31,527 nucleotides of DNA from Collinsella sp. AF08-23 (GTDB lineage: Bacteria; Actinomycetota; Coriobacteriia; Coriobacteriales; Coriobacteriaceae). This document shows, in pieces, positions 17,860 through 24,997 of this stretch (its first letter is position 1; the number at the start of each line of letters is the position of its first letter). The position numbers were made by a program, and so were the translations under genes. The notes below the pieces were generated by a model, which did not search any database, was not told the origin of the DNA, and saw only the letters and a program-made list of their open reading frames with translations. Where the stretch lies: NCBI RefSeq assembly GCF_003479805.1, contig NZ_QUHV01000019.1:1-31527 (forward strand), given 5' to 3'.

Positions 17860-19107
17860 TTACAGGGCGAACACCCGCAGACGCACCAACGCCGGTAAGC
17901 CGTCGTCACCTCGCACGGTGGCATACGTCACCAGACGATCCGTCGTTCCCTCGCTTGCCGGATAGTCGCCAAAATCAAGCGCCTTATCCGGGGCCGTGAG
18001 GATTGCGTAGGTCTGGGCACTTGTGTCGACCACAAAATGCGAGGACTGGGCCTTGATGACGTACAGACTCCCCTTGCCCGTGACGCAGGCGAGCGGCTCG
18101 CGGCTCAAATATACGAACGGACCACCCGAGTTGCCGATGAACGTGCCCATGTTCCCCAGGCTGCCGCCGTATCCGTAGTTCGCCTCGACAGAAAAGGCAA
18201 AACTTTCGCCCATGAACACAGCTTCGAAGGGACTGACCGTTTCGGGCATGACCAGCTGGGCGGCAACCTTATTGTTATTCTGCAGGTCAAGCGCGGTGAG
18301 CCCGTAATATGTACCATCATCGGAATTGACGCGGGGGGCGATGGTGAGGTAACCGTCGCTCACACGCGGCCACGTCGCAAATCGACCGGGACTCTCGTAC
18401 AGGTCCTCACCCTTTTCGTCTCCCACGTTCCACAGGTAGCAATGGGAGAACTCCGAGCTCTTGGCTCCCGTCGCAAAGGGCATTTTCTGCCAGATGACCG
18501 AAGATCCCGTTGCGGTAAAACGCGCCGGCTCCCAATCGGCGTCGCCTTTGTCGAGCTCAACGGGATCTCCAACAAGCACCCCGTTCTCGAGTGCCTGGGC
18601 AATGAGTACCCAAGCTCCCGCCGCATAATCCATTTCAACCCACGCGTACACCTGCTCCGAGCAGCGAACATCGTGGAACGCATGGGTCTTTCCCGCTACC
18701 GGTTCCGACACCAGAGTCGACGTGTTTCCGCTGGCGAGAGAAATGATGCCGAGCGTGTTGATCGTGCGGGCGCTCGCCGGGGCCTCCAGCAGTGCCGCCC
18801 ACGACCCCTCGCAGTGGAACGGGACAGTGCCCAAGGGAAGGTCCCATTCGTATTGGGCGGTCAGGGTGTTGTCCACCCCCTCGAAGTCATCGGTGACGTT
18901 GGTGATCTTCGAGTCGTCAGTGATGACCTGCGGCTCACCGCTCACATTCGCAGCGCCGCCATCTGATCCACAACCCACAAGGGATATTGCCGTGAGCGCT
19001 GCTCCGGCGGCCGCAGTTCCCTTGAACAGCGTTCGGCGGCTCACGCTGCGAGAAGCAGTGGCACGGCGATCGGTCCGCGAATCGAAATGGTACTCCCTAG
19101 TTTTCAT
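17860..19107 (-). CDS. Tat-exported lipoprotein of unknown function
   Basis: 415 residues. The N-terminus has a twin-arginine signal (VSRRTLFKG, Arg24-Arg25), a hydrophobic stretch and a lipobox LVGC with Cys46, so it is probably exported folded and lipid-anchored outside the membrane. The rest is rich in short beta-type segments with recurring Trp, Gly and Asp, for example GAWVLIAQAL, SSVIWQKMP, GYLTIAPRV and SLYVIKAQ. A beta-propeller is possible, but I recognise no family with certainty. The start MKTREYHF is chosen because the signal peptide then has normal length and because it lies five bases after the stop codon of the TSCPD gene, indicating translational coupling. Confidence 0.85.
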   Translation of the reverse strand: MKTREYHFDSRTDRRATASRSVSRRTLFKGTAAAGAALTAISLVGCGSDGGAANVSGEPQVITDDSKITNVTDDFEGVDNTLTAQYEWDLPLGTVPFHCEGSWAALLEAPASARTINTLGIISLASGNTSTLVSEPVAGKTHAFHDVRCSEQVYAWVEMDYAAGAWVLIAQALENGVLVGDPVELDKGDADWEPARFTATGSSVIWQKMPFATGAKSSEFSHCYLWNVGDEKGEDLYESPGRFATWPRVSDGYLTIAPRVNSDDGTYYGLTALDLQNNNKVAAQLVMPETVSPFEAVFMGESFAFSVEANYGYGGSLGNMGTFIGNSGGPFVYLSREPLACVTGKGSLYVIKAQSSHFVVDTSAQTYAILTAPDKALDFGDYPASEGTTDRLVTYATVRGDDGLPALVRLRVFAL

Positions 19108-19468: not shown

Positions 19469-19497
19469 AAAGGGCGGACCCTAAAGGCCCGCCCTTT
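19469..19497 (-). terminator. Terminator of the ferredoxin-AOR-cytochrome operon
   Basis: A 9-bp stem (AAAGGGCGG at 19469-19477 and CCGCCCTTT at 19489-19497) closes an 11-base loop. Both flanks are T/A-rich, so it could act in either direction. It lies 23 bases past the cytochrome stop codon. Confidence 0.85.
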
Positions 19498-19519: not shown

Positions 19520-20194
19520 CTATTCGGAAGCCTCGAACAGGAATGGAGTGGTCCAGCCATCCGGCACGGCACCCTGCTGGCCGTCGCCCAAGTCAACCTT
19601 GCTCCAGCCCTCGGGAATGCCACCTTCGCCCTCCCAGGCACCAACCTGGTGGCAACCGGCACACGTGAAGACGCTCTGGTCGTGCATGCGGTGGCAGGAA
19701 TTGCACTGCTGTACGCCGTGGTAATCGCTATGCGGATCAAACGAGAGGTCCTTCGTGGAAGACTCGCTCGCGCCGGGCATGATGCCGGCACCAGCGTGGC
19801 AACCGCTCTGCAGGCAGAACTCATTGGTGTAGGTCACCTTGGCGAGCGGCGTATCGTGATCGCCGGTCAGCTGGGACTGCACCATGCGGGCAGAGGTGCC
19901 CAGGGTGTTCTCATGGCAGTCAAGGCACTTTCCATTCACAACGGCCTTGTGGGCATACGCCAAAGAATCGGTCTGATTCTCGAACGTGTCGTAATACTTG
20001 CCCATGGTGCTGTGGCACAGAGCGTCGCAGTAACCGGGGGTAGCACGCCAGGCCCAGCCGGCAACGCCGAGAACGGTCGCCGCCACCACGACGGCAATCA
20101 CGATGGGCAGGCGCTTGCCCTTCCAATCGCGCTTCTTCTTGGGAGTCTCGGGCGTGGCCTCGGCCGCGCTCGTCTCCTTGATCTCATCAGCCAT
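19520..20194 (-). CDS. Membrane-anchored multihaem cytochrome c
   Basis: 224 residues. A basic cytoplasmic N-terminus leads into one membrane helix (about 30-49), and the rest must lie outside the cytoplasm where c-type haem is attached. Five haem-attachment motifs are visible: CDALCH (56-61, three residues between the cysteines), CLDCH (90-94), CLQSGCH (127-133, four residues between), CNSCH (164-168) and CAGCH (178-182). Extra His residues (for example His82, His113, His155, His159, His171) can serve as distal ligands. The layout resembles NapC/NirT/NrfH-type quinol-linked cytochromes, though the fit to that family is partial. It is the last gene of the operon, 24 bases after the AOR gene, with GAGGAG before its ATG, and probably exchanges electrons between the AOR/ferredoxin pair and menaquinone. 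Confidence 0.92.
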   Translation of the reverse strand: MADEIKETSAAEATPETPKKKRDWKGKRLPIVIAVVVAATVLGVAGWAWRATPGYCDALCHSTMGKYYDTFENQTDSLAYAHKAVVNGKCLDCHENTLGTSARMVQSQLTGDHDTPLAKVTYTNEFCLQSGCHAGAGIMPGASESSTKDLSFDPHSDYHGVQQCNSCHRMHDQSVFTCAGCHQVGAWEGEGGIPEGWSKVDLGDGQQGAVPDGWTTPFLFEASE

Positions 20195-20218
20195 ACTTGC
20201 TCCTCTAGATCAGACGGT

Positions 20219-22465
20219 CTACGCAGACAGCGCCGGGTTGTCGCCGCAGTACTTCTCAAGAATATGGTCGTACGTGCGCGTGCGCTTGTCGTACGAGGTG
20301 CCACCCTCGGTCAACAGACCGCGCGACTCAAGATCCTCGGCGATATCGCTCATGCCAAGGTCGTTCAGGCACTCCTTGGTGGGGCAGCCGAGCTTTTCGT
20401 CCCAGCCAAAGCGCTTATAGAGCATGGTAAGGGCTTTCTTCCAGTCCTTGCGCTCCATCTTGTCGGTGCCAGGGGTGAAGGGCTCGATATCCGGATCCTT
20501 CTCGAAGACCCACTCGGTAATGACATCATGGACATTGCGCATGTCGTTGCAGCCCACGTTGCCGTCCTTGTCCTTCATGCCGCGCACGGTGTTGGCGCGC
20601 TGGAGCGTCATGATACGCTCACCAGCCTTGTACAGGTCGTCAATGGTGACTTTCTGGCCGGTGACCGCGGTGTAGAACTGGGCTTCGAGGTCCAGGTCGC
20701 CGCGATAGCTGCGCTCCTTGGCGGGGGCCATGGCCATCGGCCATACCCAGTTGCACAGGACGAGGGAGTCGTGCAGAACGTCGGTGACGATGCTCCACCA
20801 GGCGAACTCGGCTTTAGCCTCGTTCATGGGGGTGTAATCCTTGGTGGCGTCGATAGCGCCCTCGCCCCACATCTCGGCAGCCATCTCCTCCTTGAGCTCC
20901 TGCGGCAGACCGCAGCCCTGGAAGTTGACGGCGGAGTGGATCATGTCATCGCGGTTGAACATCATGTTGTACAGACCGCCAGTCTGGCCGAAGCACTCGA
21001 TGGAGTGGTGGACCGGCCAGCCGCGGTAGTTGATGAGCGCGGACTTGGCGTTGTCGAACCAATCCTCGCAGCCCCACTCCTTGGTCCACACGATGGGACC
21101 GTGGCCGAGCCAGGAGATCGGCTTGTTCTCCGTATCGTTGGAAGCGATGTCCAGCAGGATCTTCACAAAGCTGGAGGGATCGCCGCCATGGAGAATCGCG
21201 TCGAAGTTGTACTCGGCCATCTGCTCGGCGGGAACGTGCTTCTCGAGGATGCCCGCGGAGTAGGTGTAGGCCAAGTCGCGGTAGAGCTGGGCATAGTTGC
21301 ACCACAGGCCAAGGTCATCGACCGTGGCGGAGATAAGCATGTTGTAGTTCACGGAGAGGTCGGTCAGGGTCTTGCCATCCTCTTCGTAGATCCCCTCGGC
21401 CTTGAGGAAGGACTGCATATAGGCCGTGAAGGGGAAGTTGGGCACGCAGGTGTTGCCCTGGGACTCGTAACCGGTCTTCTCCTGGACGAACGGCACGTGC
21501 ACCTGTGCGTAGCAACGAACGGGGCAGCCGTGGCAGCCGGCCATCTTGACCGTGTACTTCTCGGCGGCGGGGCCCATGTCCTTGGTGGACTTCATGCAGC
21601 GGTATCCCATGGTGTTGGGCTCAAACGGCTTGGGCTCGCCAGTCTCGATGGGACCACCTTCGGCGGCAGCCCAATAAAGGCCCTTCTTGGCGGTCCAACG
21701 GGAACCGGCGTCGTAGTACTCAGCCCAAGACTGCTGGGTGCTCGGGACGACGTGGTTGTTGTTGGAGCCGATGACCTGGGCGATCATGTAGTCGGAAAGG
21801 TCGGCGACCATCTGCGGGTCGGCCACGTGCACCGCCTTGGTGCCGCGGATAACGACGGCCTTGAGATTCTTGACGCCAAAGACGGCTCCCAGGCCGGCAC
21901 CGGCGGAGTGGGAACGGGTATTCATCACACAGGCGTAAGGCAGCAGGTTCTCGCCGGCGGGGCCGATAGCTGCGACGCAGCACTCGGCACCATGCTTCTT
22001 GCACAGGGCCTCAGTAGTCTCGCGCGTGCCCTTGCCCCACAGGGCGGAGGCGTCCTCAATCGAGATCTTGTCGTCGTCAATGAAAATGTAAACGGGCTTG
22101 TCGGACTTGCCCTCGATAATCAGGCCGTCGTGGCCCGAGTACTTGAGCATGGCACCGAGCTGACCGCCACAGTGCATGTCGACCACGAGATGGTCAGTCG
22201 TGAACGTGGACAGGGACGCCCAGGTGGAGCGGCCCGCCAACGGCACACCGGAACCGGTCAAGGGACCGACGGCGAGAACGGCCTTGTTCTCCTCGTCCAT
22301 CCAATCGACCTCGGGGCCGACCTCGTCGTACATGATCTTGTTCGCGAAGCCCATACCGCCGATGTAGTCCTTCTGCATCTCGACATCGGACTCTTCGGTG
22401 ATATCTCCGCTCGTAAGGTTGACGCGGGCGATCCAGCCAGCCCAACCGTAAGAGGTTTCAGCCAT
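20219..22465 (-). CDS. Aldehyde ferredoxin oxidoreductase family tungsten/molybdenum enzyme
   Basis: 748 residues, somewhat longer than the usual 600 to 700. The AOR N-terminal domain is clear (DYIGGMGFANKIMYDE, GPLTGSGVPLAGRST, GAMLKYSGHDGLIIEG, NTRSHSAGAGLGAVFGVKNLKAV). It is followed by the [4Fe-4S] motif Cys311-x2-Cys314-x3-Cys318, the DDLGLWCN segment corresponding to the DxxGL pterin-binding motif, and a likely fourth cluster ligand Cys639. The family oxidises aldehydes to acids, or the reverse, with a bis-pyranopterin tungsten or molybdenum cofactor. The substrate here is unknown. No signal peptide is present, although the partner ferredoxin is Tat-exported. The gene starts 12 bases after the ferredoxin stop with a strong AAGGAG. 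The closest familiar arrangement is E. coli YdhV with YdhY. Confidence 0.95.
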   Translation of the reverse strand: MAETSYGWAGWIARVNLTSGDITEESDVEMQKDYIGGMGFANKIMYDEVGPEVDWMDEENKAVLAVGPLTGSGVPLAGRSTWASLSTFTTDHLVVDMHCGGQLGAMLKYSGHDGLIIEGKSDKPVYIFIDDDKISIEDASALWGKGTRETTEALCKKHGAECCVAAIGPAGENLLPYACVMNTRSHSAGAGLGAVFGVKNLKAVVIRGTKAVHVADPQMVADLSDYMIAQVIGSNNNHVVPSTQQSWAEYYDAGSRWTAKKGLYWAAAEGGPIETGEPKPFEPNTMGYRCMKSTKDMGPAAEKYTVKMAGCHGCPVRCYAQVHVPFVQEKTGYESQGNTCVPNFPFTAYMQSFLKAEGIYEEDGKTLTDLSVNYNMLISATVDDLGLWCNYAQLYRDLAYTYSAGILEKHVPAEQMAEYNFDAILHGGDPSSFVKILLDIASNDTENKPISWLGHGPIVWTKEWGCEDWFDNAKSALINYRGWPVHHSIECFGQTGGLYNMMFNRDDMIHSAVNFQGCGLPQELKEEMAAEMWGEGAIDATKDYTPMNEAKAEFAWWSIVTDVLHDSLVLCNWVWPMAMAPAKERSYRGDLDLEAQFYTAVTGQKVTIDDLYKAGERIMTLQRANTVRGMKDKDGNVGCNDMRNVHDVITEWVFEKDPDIEPFTPGTDKMERKDWKKALTMLYKRFGWDEKLGCPTKECLNDLGMSDIAEDLESRGLLTEGGTSYDKRTRTYDHILEKYCGDNPALSA

Positions 22466-22477
22466 TGCGCTTCTCCT

Positions 22478-23203
22478 TTACTGGGCGATCTTGCCGCCGC
22501 CGACGAAGTCCTGGACCTCGCTGACGTAGGGCCACTTGATCTCGGAACGGGTGGGACCGGAGGAGTGGTTCACGTTCTCCCACTTGATGAGCTCGAGAGC
22601 GCCGTTGGGGCACTGGTCGGCGCAACGGCCGCAGGCGATGCACTTGGTGGACTTGTGGGTCTCGGTGTTCACCACGGGCATGTGCCACGGGCAGGCGGCG
22701 ACGCAGGTACCGCAGCCCACACACTTGTCGGGGTCGACGGTGCGCGTGCCGTTCTCCATGGTGATGATGGCCCCATGCGGGCACGACGTCTGGCAAAGAG
22801 CGGTTGTGCACATGTGGCAGGCGCGGATCTGCCACTCGCAGGAATAGTAAATGCCGTCGAAGGACTCCCAGTCGGAGCCGAAGTTGAAGCCGTCGTGCAC
22901 GTGGATGCGGGCGGCGGCGGGCTGAGATGCACCATCGTTTTGCAGGGTGCACATCATCTCGCAGCGCTGGCAACCGGTGCAGCGAGCACGGTTGACCTTG
23001 AGCACGTGGGCCGGGGTCGCGTAGTAATCGACCTCGCCCTTTGAGCTCGTGGGGGCCGCGGCGGCGGAATCCGGGAGCAACCCCAGCGCCACCATGCCAG
23101 CCACGAACGCGCCCGACACCTTCACAAACCCACGACGGGTAAAGAAGGAGTCGAGACGATCCGCACCGGAGCCGACCTGCTCCATGGCGGTGTTCTCTTT
23201 CAT
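22478..23203 (-). CDS. Tat-exported ferredoxin-like subunit with four [4Fe-4S] sites
   Basis: 241 residues. A Tat signal peptide (TRRGFVKVSG, Arg23-Arg24) has a hydrophobic core and an Ala-rich cleavage region near 46-51. Sixteen cysteines form four groups: Cys75/78/81/85, Cys122/129/132/137/141 (one of these five is extra), Cys161/164/167/171 and Cys188/191/194/198. This is the DmsB/HybA/YdhY type of electron-transfer subunit, which wires a catalytic subunit to a membrane partner. The start MKENTAMEQ follows GGGAGGGAA; the open frame runs 27 codons further upstream without support. It is the first gene of the three-gene operon with the AOR protein and the cytochrome, and is the only one of them with a cleavable export signal. 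Confidence 0.95.
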   Translation of the reverse strand: MKENTAMEQVGSGADRLDSFFTRRGFVKVSGAFVAGMVALGLLPDSAAAAPTSSKGEVDYYATPAHVLKVNRARCTGCQRCEMMCTLQNDGASQPAAARIHVHDGFNFGSDWESFDGIYYSCEWQIRACHMCTTALCQTSCPHGAIITMENGTRTVDPDKCVGCGTCVAACPWHMPVVNTETHKSTKCIACGRCADQCPNGALELIKWENVNHSSGPTRSEIKWPYVSEVQDFVGGGKIAQ

Positions 23204-23328: not shown

Positions 23329-23362
23329 ATGCTCATTATTCTATTTGGAGAATAATGAGCAT
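23329..23362. promoter_or_regulatory. Large AT-rich palindrome upstream of the ferredoxin-AOR operon
   Basis: Perfect 14-bp arms ATGCTCATTATTCT (23329-23342) and their complement (23349-23362) flank a 6-base centre. The arms are AT-rich in a GC-rich genome and no T tract follows, so an operator is more likely than a terminator. It lies about 125 bases upstream of the ferredoxin start and about 60 bases past the stop of the NifU-like gene. Confidence 0.65.
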
Positions 23363-23424: not shown

Positions 23425-24018
23425 CTACTCGATCTCTCCGACTTCGCGCAGCTCCTGGTCCACACGCTCGTCGCGCAGGGAGCAATTCTCGGTGAGCAGG
23501 CAGTTAGGGCACATGCTTTCGCACCTGATAACCTCGTTGAGCTGGGCAAGGTTGCACCCCTTGATGCGTAACAGGTAATCGCCGATGATGGCACGCACGG
23601 CCTCGATGGCGTAGGTGAGGGTGTACTTGCGGCCATTCGGCAGGCCACCCACTGCCTCGAGGATGTCCTCCTTACTTATGGCGAGTGCCTCCTCGAACGT
23701 CTTGCCGCGCAACATCGTGGCGAGCGCGGTAGCACAGGCGATGGCCGCGAGGCAGCCGTGGCTGCGAAAGCCCACCTCGACGAAGGTCTCGGTTTCGGGG
23801 TCGATCTGCGCGAACAGTTGCATCTGCACCGTGCCGCGCTTCTCCTTGCCCACGCTGCAAAACGCATTGGCCCCGTCGGGGATGCCGCCGTTTTTGGCAT
23901 CGGCGATGAGGTCGAGCGAACGCTCGGAGTACTCCGTGATGGGCGCGTCGTTCTCGATCTGGTACATGTCGGGCGTGCGCAAAAACGGTGTGTCCTCGGT
24001 CAGACGGCGCTTTGCCAT
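23425..24018 (-). CDS. NifU/IscU-like Fe-S cluster scaffold protein
   Basis: 197 residues. The central region (about 45-150) has the NifU N-terminal fold signature: PDGANAFCSVG, a Cys in GFRSHGCLAAIACATAL, the GKTFEEAL helix, LPNGRKYTLTYAIEAVRAII. The C-terminus adds a Cys cluster (IRCESMCPNCLLTENCSL) not found in ordinary IscU, and this may bind a metal cluster itself. IscU-type proteins build [Fe-S] clusters and pass them to apo-proteins. The start MAKRRLTED is chosen for AAGGGA eight bases upstream. It lies just upstream of the operon whose products need at least five [4Fe-4S] clusters, so a dedicated scaffold role is plausible though unproven. Confidence 0.85.
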   Translation of the reverse strand: MAKRRLTEDTPFLRTPDMYQIENDAPITEYSERSLDLIADAKNGGIPDGANAFCSVGKEKRGTVQMQLFAQIDPETETFVEVGFRSHGCLAAIACATALATMLRGKTFEEALAISKEDILEAVGGLPNGRKYTLTYAIEAVRAIIGDYLLRIKGCNLAQLNEVIRCESMCPNCLLTENCSLRDERVDQELREVGEIE

Positions 24019-24139: not shown

Positions 24140-24997
24140 CTATGGATTGCGGAACTTCTCCACGCCGTACCATTCGGCCAACGCCTTCCCCTGCGCAGGG
24201 CTCAGATGGCGCGTGGAATAGAAGAACGACTCGTTCAAGCTGGTCGTGGTGAGCTCAATGTCCGCATACGCGTCGTCGCCTGTCGCGCGCTCGTAGAGCT
24301 CGGTAACCTTCGAGGCGGACCACAAGTAAGGGCTGTTGAGGAAGTCAGACGCCGCCGTAGGCCGCGGATACACGCGAGACTCCGTGCGAATCACATCCGC
24401 AAACGTCGCTAGGTCATCCCCCTCCGCCGTGTTGAACAGTGCATGGGCAAAGCTGTGGGACATGATCGGCTTGGAGTACAGGTACACCCCGGACTTGCCG
24501 TACAGCACCACGATATCCGTCACGTCGGGCTCGGGTAGAGGATCATCCAGGCCCAGCTCATCGAGCTCGGGACGATCATCATACCCCACAGGCACTTCCC
24601 GCCTGCCGATTGCAGGGGAGTCCTCTGCATGCGGATGCTCCTCAATATAGGAGAGCAGCTCGTCCCCGAACGCTTTCGCATCCACGCCCGCCGGCGCGAA
24701 CGCGCGCTTCACCCAGCGCTCGGGAGAGGTGAGCTTGCCGTCCGTCGACCGACGGCGCAGGTCGGCGAGGGCCTGGTCCGCTGCAATCAACCAATCGTTG
24801 CGGGCGTGAATAGCGGCGAGGCCCTCAGGCGTAGGGGCTCCAACGTCCTTTTCACCGTCATCGTTGGGCGTGGATGAGGGGGCGCTGTCGGATCCACCCG
24901 GCGCGAAGTGCGGAGCCTCGACGGCAACCGCATCCTCGACAGCGGTGTTGGCAACGCATCCCGCACACCCTTCTACCGGCTCAAATTCCTCGCTCAT
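24140..24997 (-). CDS. Uncharacterised acidic protein of the AOR gene cluster
   Basis: 285 residues, no signal peptide or membrane segment. The first 55 residues are low-complexity and acidic with a CAGC motif at 11-14. The remainder looks folded, with helix-rich stretches (NDWLIAADQALADLRRR, SPERWVKRAFAPAGVDAKAFGDELLSYIEEHP) and a conserved-looking C-terminal part (VLYGKSGVYLYSKPIMSHSFAHALFNTAEGD and the ending WYGVEKFRNP, cited here only in part). I do not recognise the family with confidence. By position and size it may correspond to YdhW-type accessory proteins of AOR operons. GAGGTGA precedes the ATG. It is separated from typA by a terminator and from the NifU-like gene by 121 bases. Confidence 0.78.
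   Translation of the reverse strand: MSEEFEPVEGCAGCVANTAVEDAVAVEAPHFAPGGSDSAPSSTPNDDGEKDVGAPTPEGLAAIHARNDWLIAADQALADLRRRSTDGKLTSPERWVKRAFAPAGVDAKAFGDELLSYIEEHPHAEDSPAIGRREVPVGYDDRPELDELGLDDPLPEPDVTDIVVLYGKSGVYLYSKPIMSHSFAHALFNTAEGDDLATFADVIRTESRVYPRPTAASDFLNSPYLWSASKVTELYERATGDDAYADIELTTTSLNESFFYSTRHLSPAQGKALAEWYGVEKFRNP

Follow-up and report, generated by a model that had tools for sequence, protein, structure and literature searches.

What does an enzyme of the aldehyde oxidoreductase (AOR) family do in an operon that also encodes a ferredoxin with a twin-arginine signal and a multihaem cytochrome c? We addressed this question in Collinsella sp. AF08-23, in a stretch of 31,527 nucleotides (contig NZ_QUHV01000019.1; hereafter the window), where three minus-strand genes at 22478-23203, 20219-22465 and 19520-20194 follow one another with intergenic gaps of 12 and 24 bases. 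They form a real, conserved operon whose wiring is a new variation on an already published class, the Class V tungsten/molybdenum oxidoreductases, corresponding to clade 41, YdhV (PMC13328260, June 2026; papers cited here by PMC number were available in part, and what we draw from them is limited to those parts). Our preferred reading, to which we assign a probability of roughly 0.6, is an exported Class V (clade 41, YdhV-type) pterin reductase fed by a membrane-anchored five-haem cytochrome. Directly observed were the order of the genes, their signals and motifs, and their joint occurrence with cytochrome c maturation (Ccm) genes; new here is that ydhV, ydhW, ccmF/ccmC and the five-haem cytochrome share the same 14 of 43 Collinsella-genus genomes.

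In the proposed mechanism, YdhV and the four-cluster ferredoxin would be matured in the cytoplasm, probably with a NifU-like protein and YdhW, and would leave together through the twin-arginine translocation (Tat) system on the signal of the ferredoxin. Outside the membrane, the pair would meet the anchored cytochrome and may form a complex with it. Electrons would then run from a membrane donor through cytochrome and ferredoxin to the metal-pterin site, reducing a small molecule.

A conserved operon for a YdhV-type enzyme, a ferredoxin and a pentahaem cytochrome

The first gene (22478..23203, minus strand) encodes a WorS/YdhY-like, Tat-signal ferredoxin of 241 residues, as judged from profile and domain matches, motifs and solved relatives. 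It carries cysteine motifs for four iron-sulphur clusters, its nearest family is YdhY (model NF007382, 180 bits, below the cut-off of 213) and, among proteins of solved structure, the AOR small subunits 8c0z_C and 9mqx_E are some of its best matches. After the twin-arginine motif TRRGFVK (23120..23140, minus strand) come a hydrophobic stretch and a site rich in alanine that resembles a cleavage site. The second gene (20219..22465, minus strand) encodes the YdhV-type AOR-family catalytic subunit (WorL), a protein of 748 residues without signal peptide, in which the AOR fold (AFOR_N and AFOR_C domains) starts directly at the N terminus; it scores 974 bits against the YdhV equivalog NF007354, above the cut-off of 868, and is 52% identical to Escherichia coli YdhV. 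The solved AOR entries 8c0z and 9mqx, both large-small subunit pairs, match this protein as well as the ferredoxin.

The third gene (19520..20194, minus strand) encodes a membrane-anchored pentahaem cytochrome c of 224 residues, with one N-terminal hydrophobic anchor and the haem motifs CX3CH, CX2CH, CX4CH, CX2CH and CX2CH. Its nearest named family is Cgr1 (Cgr1-like model NF051471, 94 bits, below the equivalog cut-off of 340, which a Gordonibacter relative also misses at 164), and a family match to the NapC/NirT model TIGR02161 failed (E 0.061, 13 bits against 311). The first haem motif of the window protein (CDALCH, 20012-20029) is of the CX3CH type; the 24 orthologues read have CX3CH or CCX3CH at this place, and CNAICH is found in a Gordonibacter Cgr1-like protein. 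The failure to mature Cgr1 in other hosts (PMC5953540) might be due in part to an unusual first motif. A terminator-like hairpin with a 13-pair stem (19469..19497, minus strand; fold -24 kcal/mol, z -2.9) lies 3' of the cytochrome gene; it is absent from the output of a consensus terminator scan, probably because its T tail is short. This layout agrees with the original prediction, made from the letters of the window, which had described three genes 12 and 24 bases apart with a terminator after the last, a twin-arginine signal on the ferredoxin, an AOR protein without one, a multihaem cytochrome and a related pair in E. coli YdhV/YdhY.

A scan of species genomes returned 69 loci, comprising 62 close relatives (at least 58% identity) and seven distant AOR-family genes. 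The cytochrome gene directly follows ydhV in 24 of the 62 close loci, all from Collinsella, Enorma, Candidatus Limicola or Coriobacteriaceae, and ydhY directly precedes ydhV in all 23 of these loci that reach upstream, the 24th starting inside ydhV. In the other 38 loci, most of them from Eggerthellaceae genera, the DNA examined contains no cytochrome of this kind; there, ydhV is divergent from ydhY wherever both genes are present, and a DmsB/YdhX-like gene occurs in 35. One Gordonibacter locus (L033) has ydhY followed by a Nitrate_red_del-domain gene, a Tat molybdopterin enzyme, a DmsB-like ferredoxin and NrfD.

Co-occurrence with cytochrome c maturation genes

Co-occurrence was evaluated across 43 genomes of the genus of Collinsella stercoris, with PF14537 and PF02335 as cytochrome search families. 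Exactly the 14 genomes that carry ydhV also carry CcmF and CcmC, YdhW (with matches below the cut-off) and a PF14537 cytochrome over the cut-off, and the whole set is absent from the other 29. NrfA was found in none of the 43. Fisher's test gave p = 1.3e-11; because this value ignores kinship, the association is strong by number of genomes but modest by number of independent events.

The operon cytochrome is the sole PF14537 match over the cut-off in all but one of the 14 bearers. Genome G036 carries a second Cgr1-like pentahaem cytochrome (L096:1024-1866, first motif CX3CH), and since this protein is real, the statement that Ccm has one client holds for 13 of 14. Sub-cut-off PF14537 matches in G051 and G055 were inspected and dismissed, as no multihaem protein was present. 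In C. stercoris, whose operon is 90.4% identical in DNA to that of the window, one cluster ~110 kb from the operon holds ccmE, ccmF, ccmB and ccmC together with a gene for an ABC ATPase at the position of ccmA. PF01578 genes were present in all 18 ydhV-bearing genomes of a first search, Eggerthellaceae included. MoeA was detected in 37 of the 43 genomes (13 of 14 bearers and 24 of 29 non-bearers) and is not discriminating. Cytochrome c maturation genes and, for the pterin cofactor, MoeA, whose absence would have told against the original prediction, are present in relatives.

The YdhV active site argues against aldehyde chemistry

We compared the active site in an alignment of 14 YdhV sequences (the window, E. 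coli and 12 loci). Glu313 of Pyrococcus AOR aligns with Gln336 of the window protein, a position at which the clade has no conserved Glu. Cys340 (codon at 21446..21448, minus strand), in contrast, is invariant in 14 of 14 sequences and equals E. coli YdhV Cys336, a proposed metal ligand (PMC12096430); the AOR-like cluster cysteines are present as well. The same paper equates this cysteine with Cys322 of the benzoyl-CoA reductase BamB and describes the YdhV clade, like benzoyl-CoA reductase, as being without the conserved second-shell residues of aldehyde oxidases. Our own alignment of the window protein with BamB covers the N-terminal domain and short C-terminal pieces, with the part around BamB Cys322 lying outside the aligned region. 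No motif resembling the BamB Zn-site residues Glu251, His255, Glu257 and His260 was seen by eye in the 14 sequences, in a region that is unaligned with BamB, and the regions of the AOR second-shell residues Thr243, Tyr427 and His448 fell outside the window alignment.

Complementarily, a partly purified clade-41 large subunit from Cetobacterium, assayed without its small subunit, showed no activity on 46 aldehydes (PMC13328260). From the Glu313-to-Gln336 replacement, the retained YdhV/BamB cysteine and this inactivity, we infer a reductase as the preferred assignment. Aldehyde chemistry is unlikely for the window enzyme, judging from its sequence. The aldehyde oxidation or acid reduction put forward in the original prediction is probably wrong; its idea of an exported module is probably right in outline.

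Counter-evidence and competing explanations

Several observations weigh against an exported reductase fed by the cytochrome. The predicted model of the cytochrome has a predicted local distance difference test (pLDDT) score of 44.5, too poor for comparison, and one operon bearer (G038) is without a MoeA match. Much of the co-occurrence is accounted for by kinship: a tatC tree of 42 genomes requires five changes of the operon, only two of them forced by well-supported branches, and two in all once four long-branch genomes are omitted. Ccm looks retained for this operon, but no more than two contrasts have good support as independent. Regarding export, E. coli YdhY lacks the paired arginines, so the Tat rule is not universal, and a 2014 survey predicted Gordonibacter and Eggerthella YdhV to be cytoplasmic (PMC4257093). 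The reductive direction is preferred by inference.

The supply of menaquinone, the carrier named in the original prediction, adds to this list. MenB was found in none of 17 Collinsella-genus genomes tested, compared to six of eight Eggerthellaceae-type genomes over the cut-off, and MqnA/D gave no match over the cut-off in the 43 genomes, with weak sub-cut-off matches in 11. UbiA/MenA is present in seven of the 43, all of them bearers (7 of 14), with three of the UbiA genes read by eye as MenA-like. It is absent from C. stercoris (G001), Collinsella intestinalis (G002), G043 and G044 (the latter two carrying L003 and L005), which form one well-supported tatC clade and hold the four operons nearest to that of the window. 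At L114, L116 and L117, no men genes stand beside the UbiA-family gene in the short DNA examined.

With its synthesis missing or partial, menaquinone as the carrier is doubtful. Either the cells scavenge quinones or 1,4-dihydroxy-2-naphthoate (DHNA), or a different donor serves the cytochrome. A UbiA-family gene without adjacent men genes, in a genome without MenB, suggests the use of imported DHNA; if the donor is a quinone, the cell probably imports it or builds it from a precursor obtained from outside. In favour of the preferred reading, the E. coli ydh operon belongs to the FNR regulon, where it is tabulated together with nitrite and fumarate reductases (PMC3688515). Tentatively, and as a bolder proposal than the reductase assignment itself, Ccm may be kept in Collinsella for one client, the pentahaem cytochrome, in a minimal respiratory chain leading from scavenged quinone or DHNA to an exported YdhV reductase that would act on a new substrate class; since these genomes have at most MenA for menaquinone synthesis, such a chain would run on quinone or DHNA from other gut bacteria.

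Incomplete menaquinone synthesis would also suit an acceptor other than a home-made quinone, as expected if the same exported complex oxidised an external substrate, with electrons flowing via ferredoxin and cytochrome to an acceptor in the membrane or outside the cell. Most characterised AOR-family clades oxidise aldehydes (PMC12096430). However, Cys340 and the lost AOR glutamate place the site with YdhV and BamB, not with the aldehyde oxidases, and the related Cgr1 has been modelled as handing electrons, drawn for example from the quinone pool, to an exported reductase (PMC5953540). We consider the oxidising direction unlikely.

Hydrogenases provide a precedent for export of a signal-less protein together with a partner. 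The preferred reading assumes the same for YdhV and its ferredoxin: paired arginines are present in 60 of the 61 YdhY rows examined, the exception being the E. coli protein, and none of the YdhV rows has a signal of its own, the fold beginning within a few residues of the start where the true start is visible. TatC is encoded in 42 of the 43 Collinsella-genus genomes. The original prediction had likewise let the AOR protein leave with the Tat ferredoxin, an idea also found in PMC13328260; there, Class V small subunits are characterised by a Tat signal and/or a transmembrane segment, and the window ferredoxin carries a Tat signal.

Alternatively, YdhV could stay cytoplasmic with the ferredoxin and cytochrome alone exported, the enzyme being joined to an exterior relay, or the three proteins could form no single complex. 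The missing signal and the 2014 survey would fit this arrangement, as would the Cetobacterium enzyme, whose large and small subunits were co-expressed and of which the large one alone appeared in the purified tungsten peak (PMC13328260). It is nevertheless quite improbable in the light of the fixed gene order, the large-small pairs in both solved AOR entries and the published description of Class V enzymes as membrane-associated, with a Tat signal on WorS (PMC13328260). Finally, an ordinary but extracytoplasmic aldehyde oxidoreductase or carboxylic acid reductase, for which the AFOR_N and AFOR_C domains and the AOR-like cluster cysteines could be cited, is hardly credible given Gln336 in place of Glu313, the invariant extra cysteine and the inactive Cetobacterium large subunit (PMC13328260, assayed without the small subunit).

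Relation to known systems

Class V enzymes have been described as membrane-associated, with Collinsella among the genera named and no function assigned (PMC13328260). For Coriobacteria, the available part of that paper names transmembrane and pyranopterin subunits and no c-type cytochrome, which fits the Gordonibacter L033 arrangement and not the window operon. The described members (E. coli YdhYVWXUT and Cetobacterium CsWOR41) share with the window a YdhV-type large subunit, a four-cluster small subunit with Tat signal, a YdhW-family gene nearby, at least one further candidate subunit and the lack of an assigned substrate. They differ in the further candidate subunits, which are ydhX, ydhU and ydhT in E. 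coli, a molybdopterin enzyme, a DmsB-like ferredoxin and NrfD in L033, and the pentahaem cytochrome c in the window. The latter is anchored and encoded next to the YdhV and YdhY genes, and may be a Class V membrane subunit.

Three other systems resemble the operon in part. Cgr1/Cgr2 of Eggerthella lenta likewise combines a membrane-anchored, Cgr1-like multihaem cytochrome with a neighbouring Tat-exported redox protein, but its catalytic unit is a flavoprotein instead of a YdhV-YdhY pair, and the window cytochrome stays at 94 bits against the Cgr1-like cut-off of 340. NapC/NrfH quinol dehydrogenases have an N-terminal anchor, several haems and a proposed role in electron transfer from membrane to enzyme, whereas the window cytochrome has five haems and a first motif of the CX3CH type. 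Class II benzoyl-CoA reductase BamB/BamC is cytoplasmic, and we know of no cytochrome partner for it. BamB shares the AOR-family fold and the cysteine metal ligand common to YdhV (PMC12096430), with similarity to the window protein confined to the N-terminal domain and short C-terminal pieces. Titles and abstract openings among the matches listed from a largely open-access literature contained no description of a Collinsella YdhV-cytochrome operon.

The anchored cytochrome would be a third way to wire the catalytic pair to the membrane, besides NrfD or the putative cytochrome YdhU, in a class of enzymes common to many gut bacteria. Collinsella offers a clean system, with a single operon, a single cytochrome of that family in all but one of the 14 bearers and 29 same-genus genomes without the set, and makes testable the export of Class V enzymes, their electron donor and the respiration of gut Collinsella with borrowed quinones.

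Flanking genes

Upstream of the operon and on the same strand lie genes for a NifU_N-domain protein (23425..24018, minus strand), a probable maturation partner identified by its domain match, with a start codon inferred from relatives, and for a YdhW-family protein without signal (24140..24997, minus strand), a possible assembly or quality-control factor; their presence probably makes the module larger than three genes. A NifU-like gene is found near ydhV in 50 of the 62 close loci (19 of 24 cytochrome-bearing loci and 31 of 38 others), several misses falling on short contigs. The YdhW-family protein matches NF007411 partially, over its C-terminal 130 residues (88.7 bits, below the cut-off of 203; E 5e-25), and 88 of its 92 relatives carry a precomputed PF27264 assignment. 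As ydhY, ydhV and ydhW adjoin one another in E. coli, the ferredoxin, AOR protein and YdhW-family genes of the window represent a relative of ydh.

The stretch separating the NifU-like gene from ydhY contains a perfect inverted repeat of 14 bases at 23329-23362, with its core kept in L002, L003 and L004 at -154 to -163 and paired changes in the outer arms in L003. We considered it as an operator, but it is present only in the nearest relatives. On the other side, a TSCPD-domain gene (TIGR03905, 19113-19400), whose position is usually kept, separates the terminator hairpin from the gene for a Tat-type lipoprotein (17860-19107, ~415 residues, start inferred). Its sole Pfam match is a weak one to TAT_signal, and such a lipoprotein gene lies downstream of the operon in 22 of the 24 cytochrome-bearing loci.

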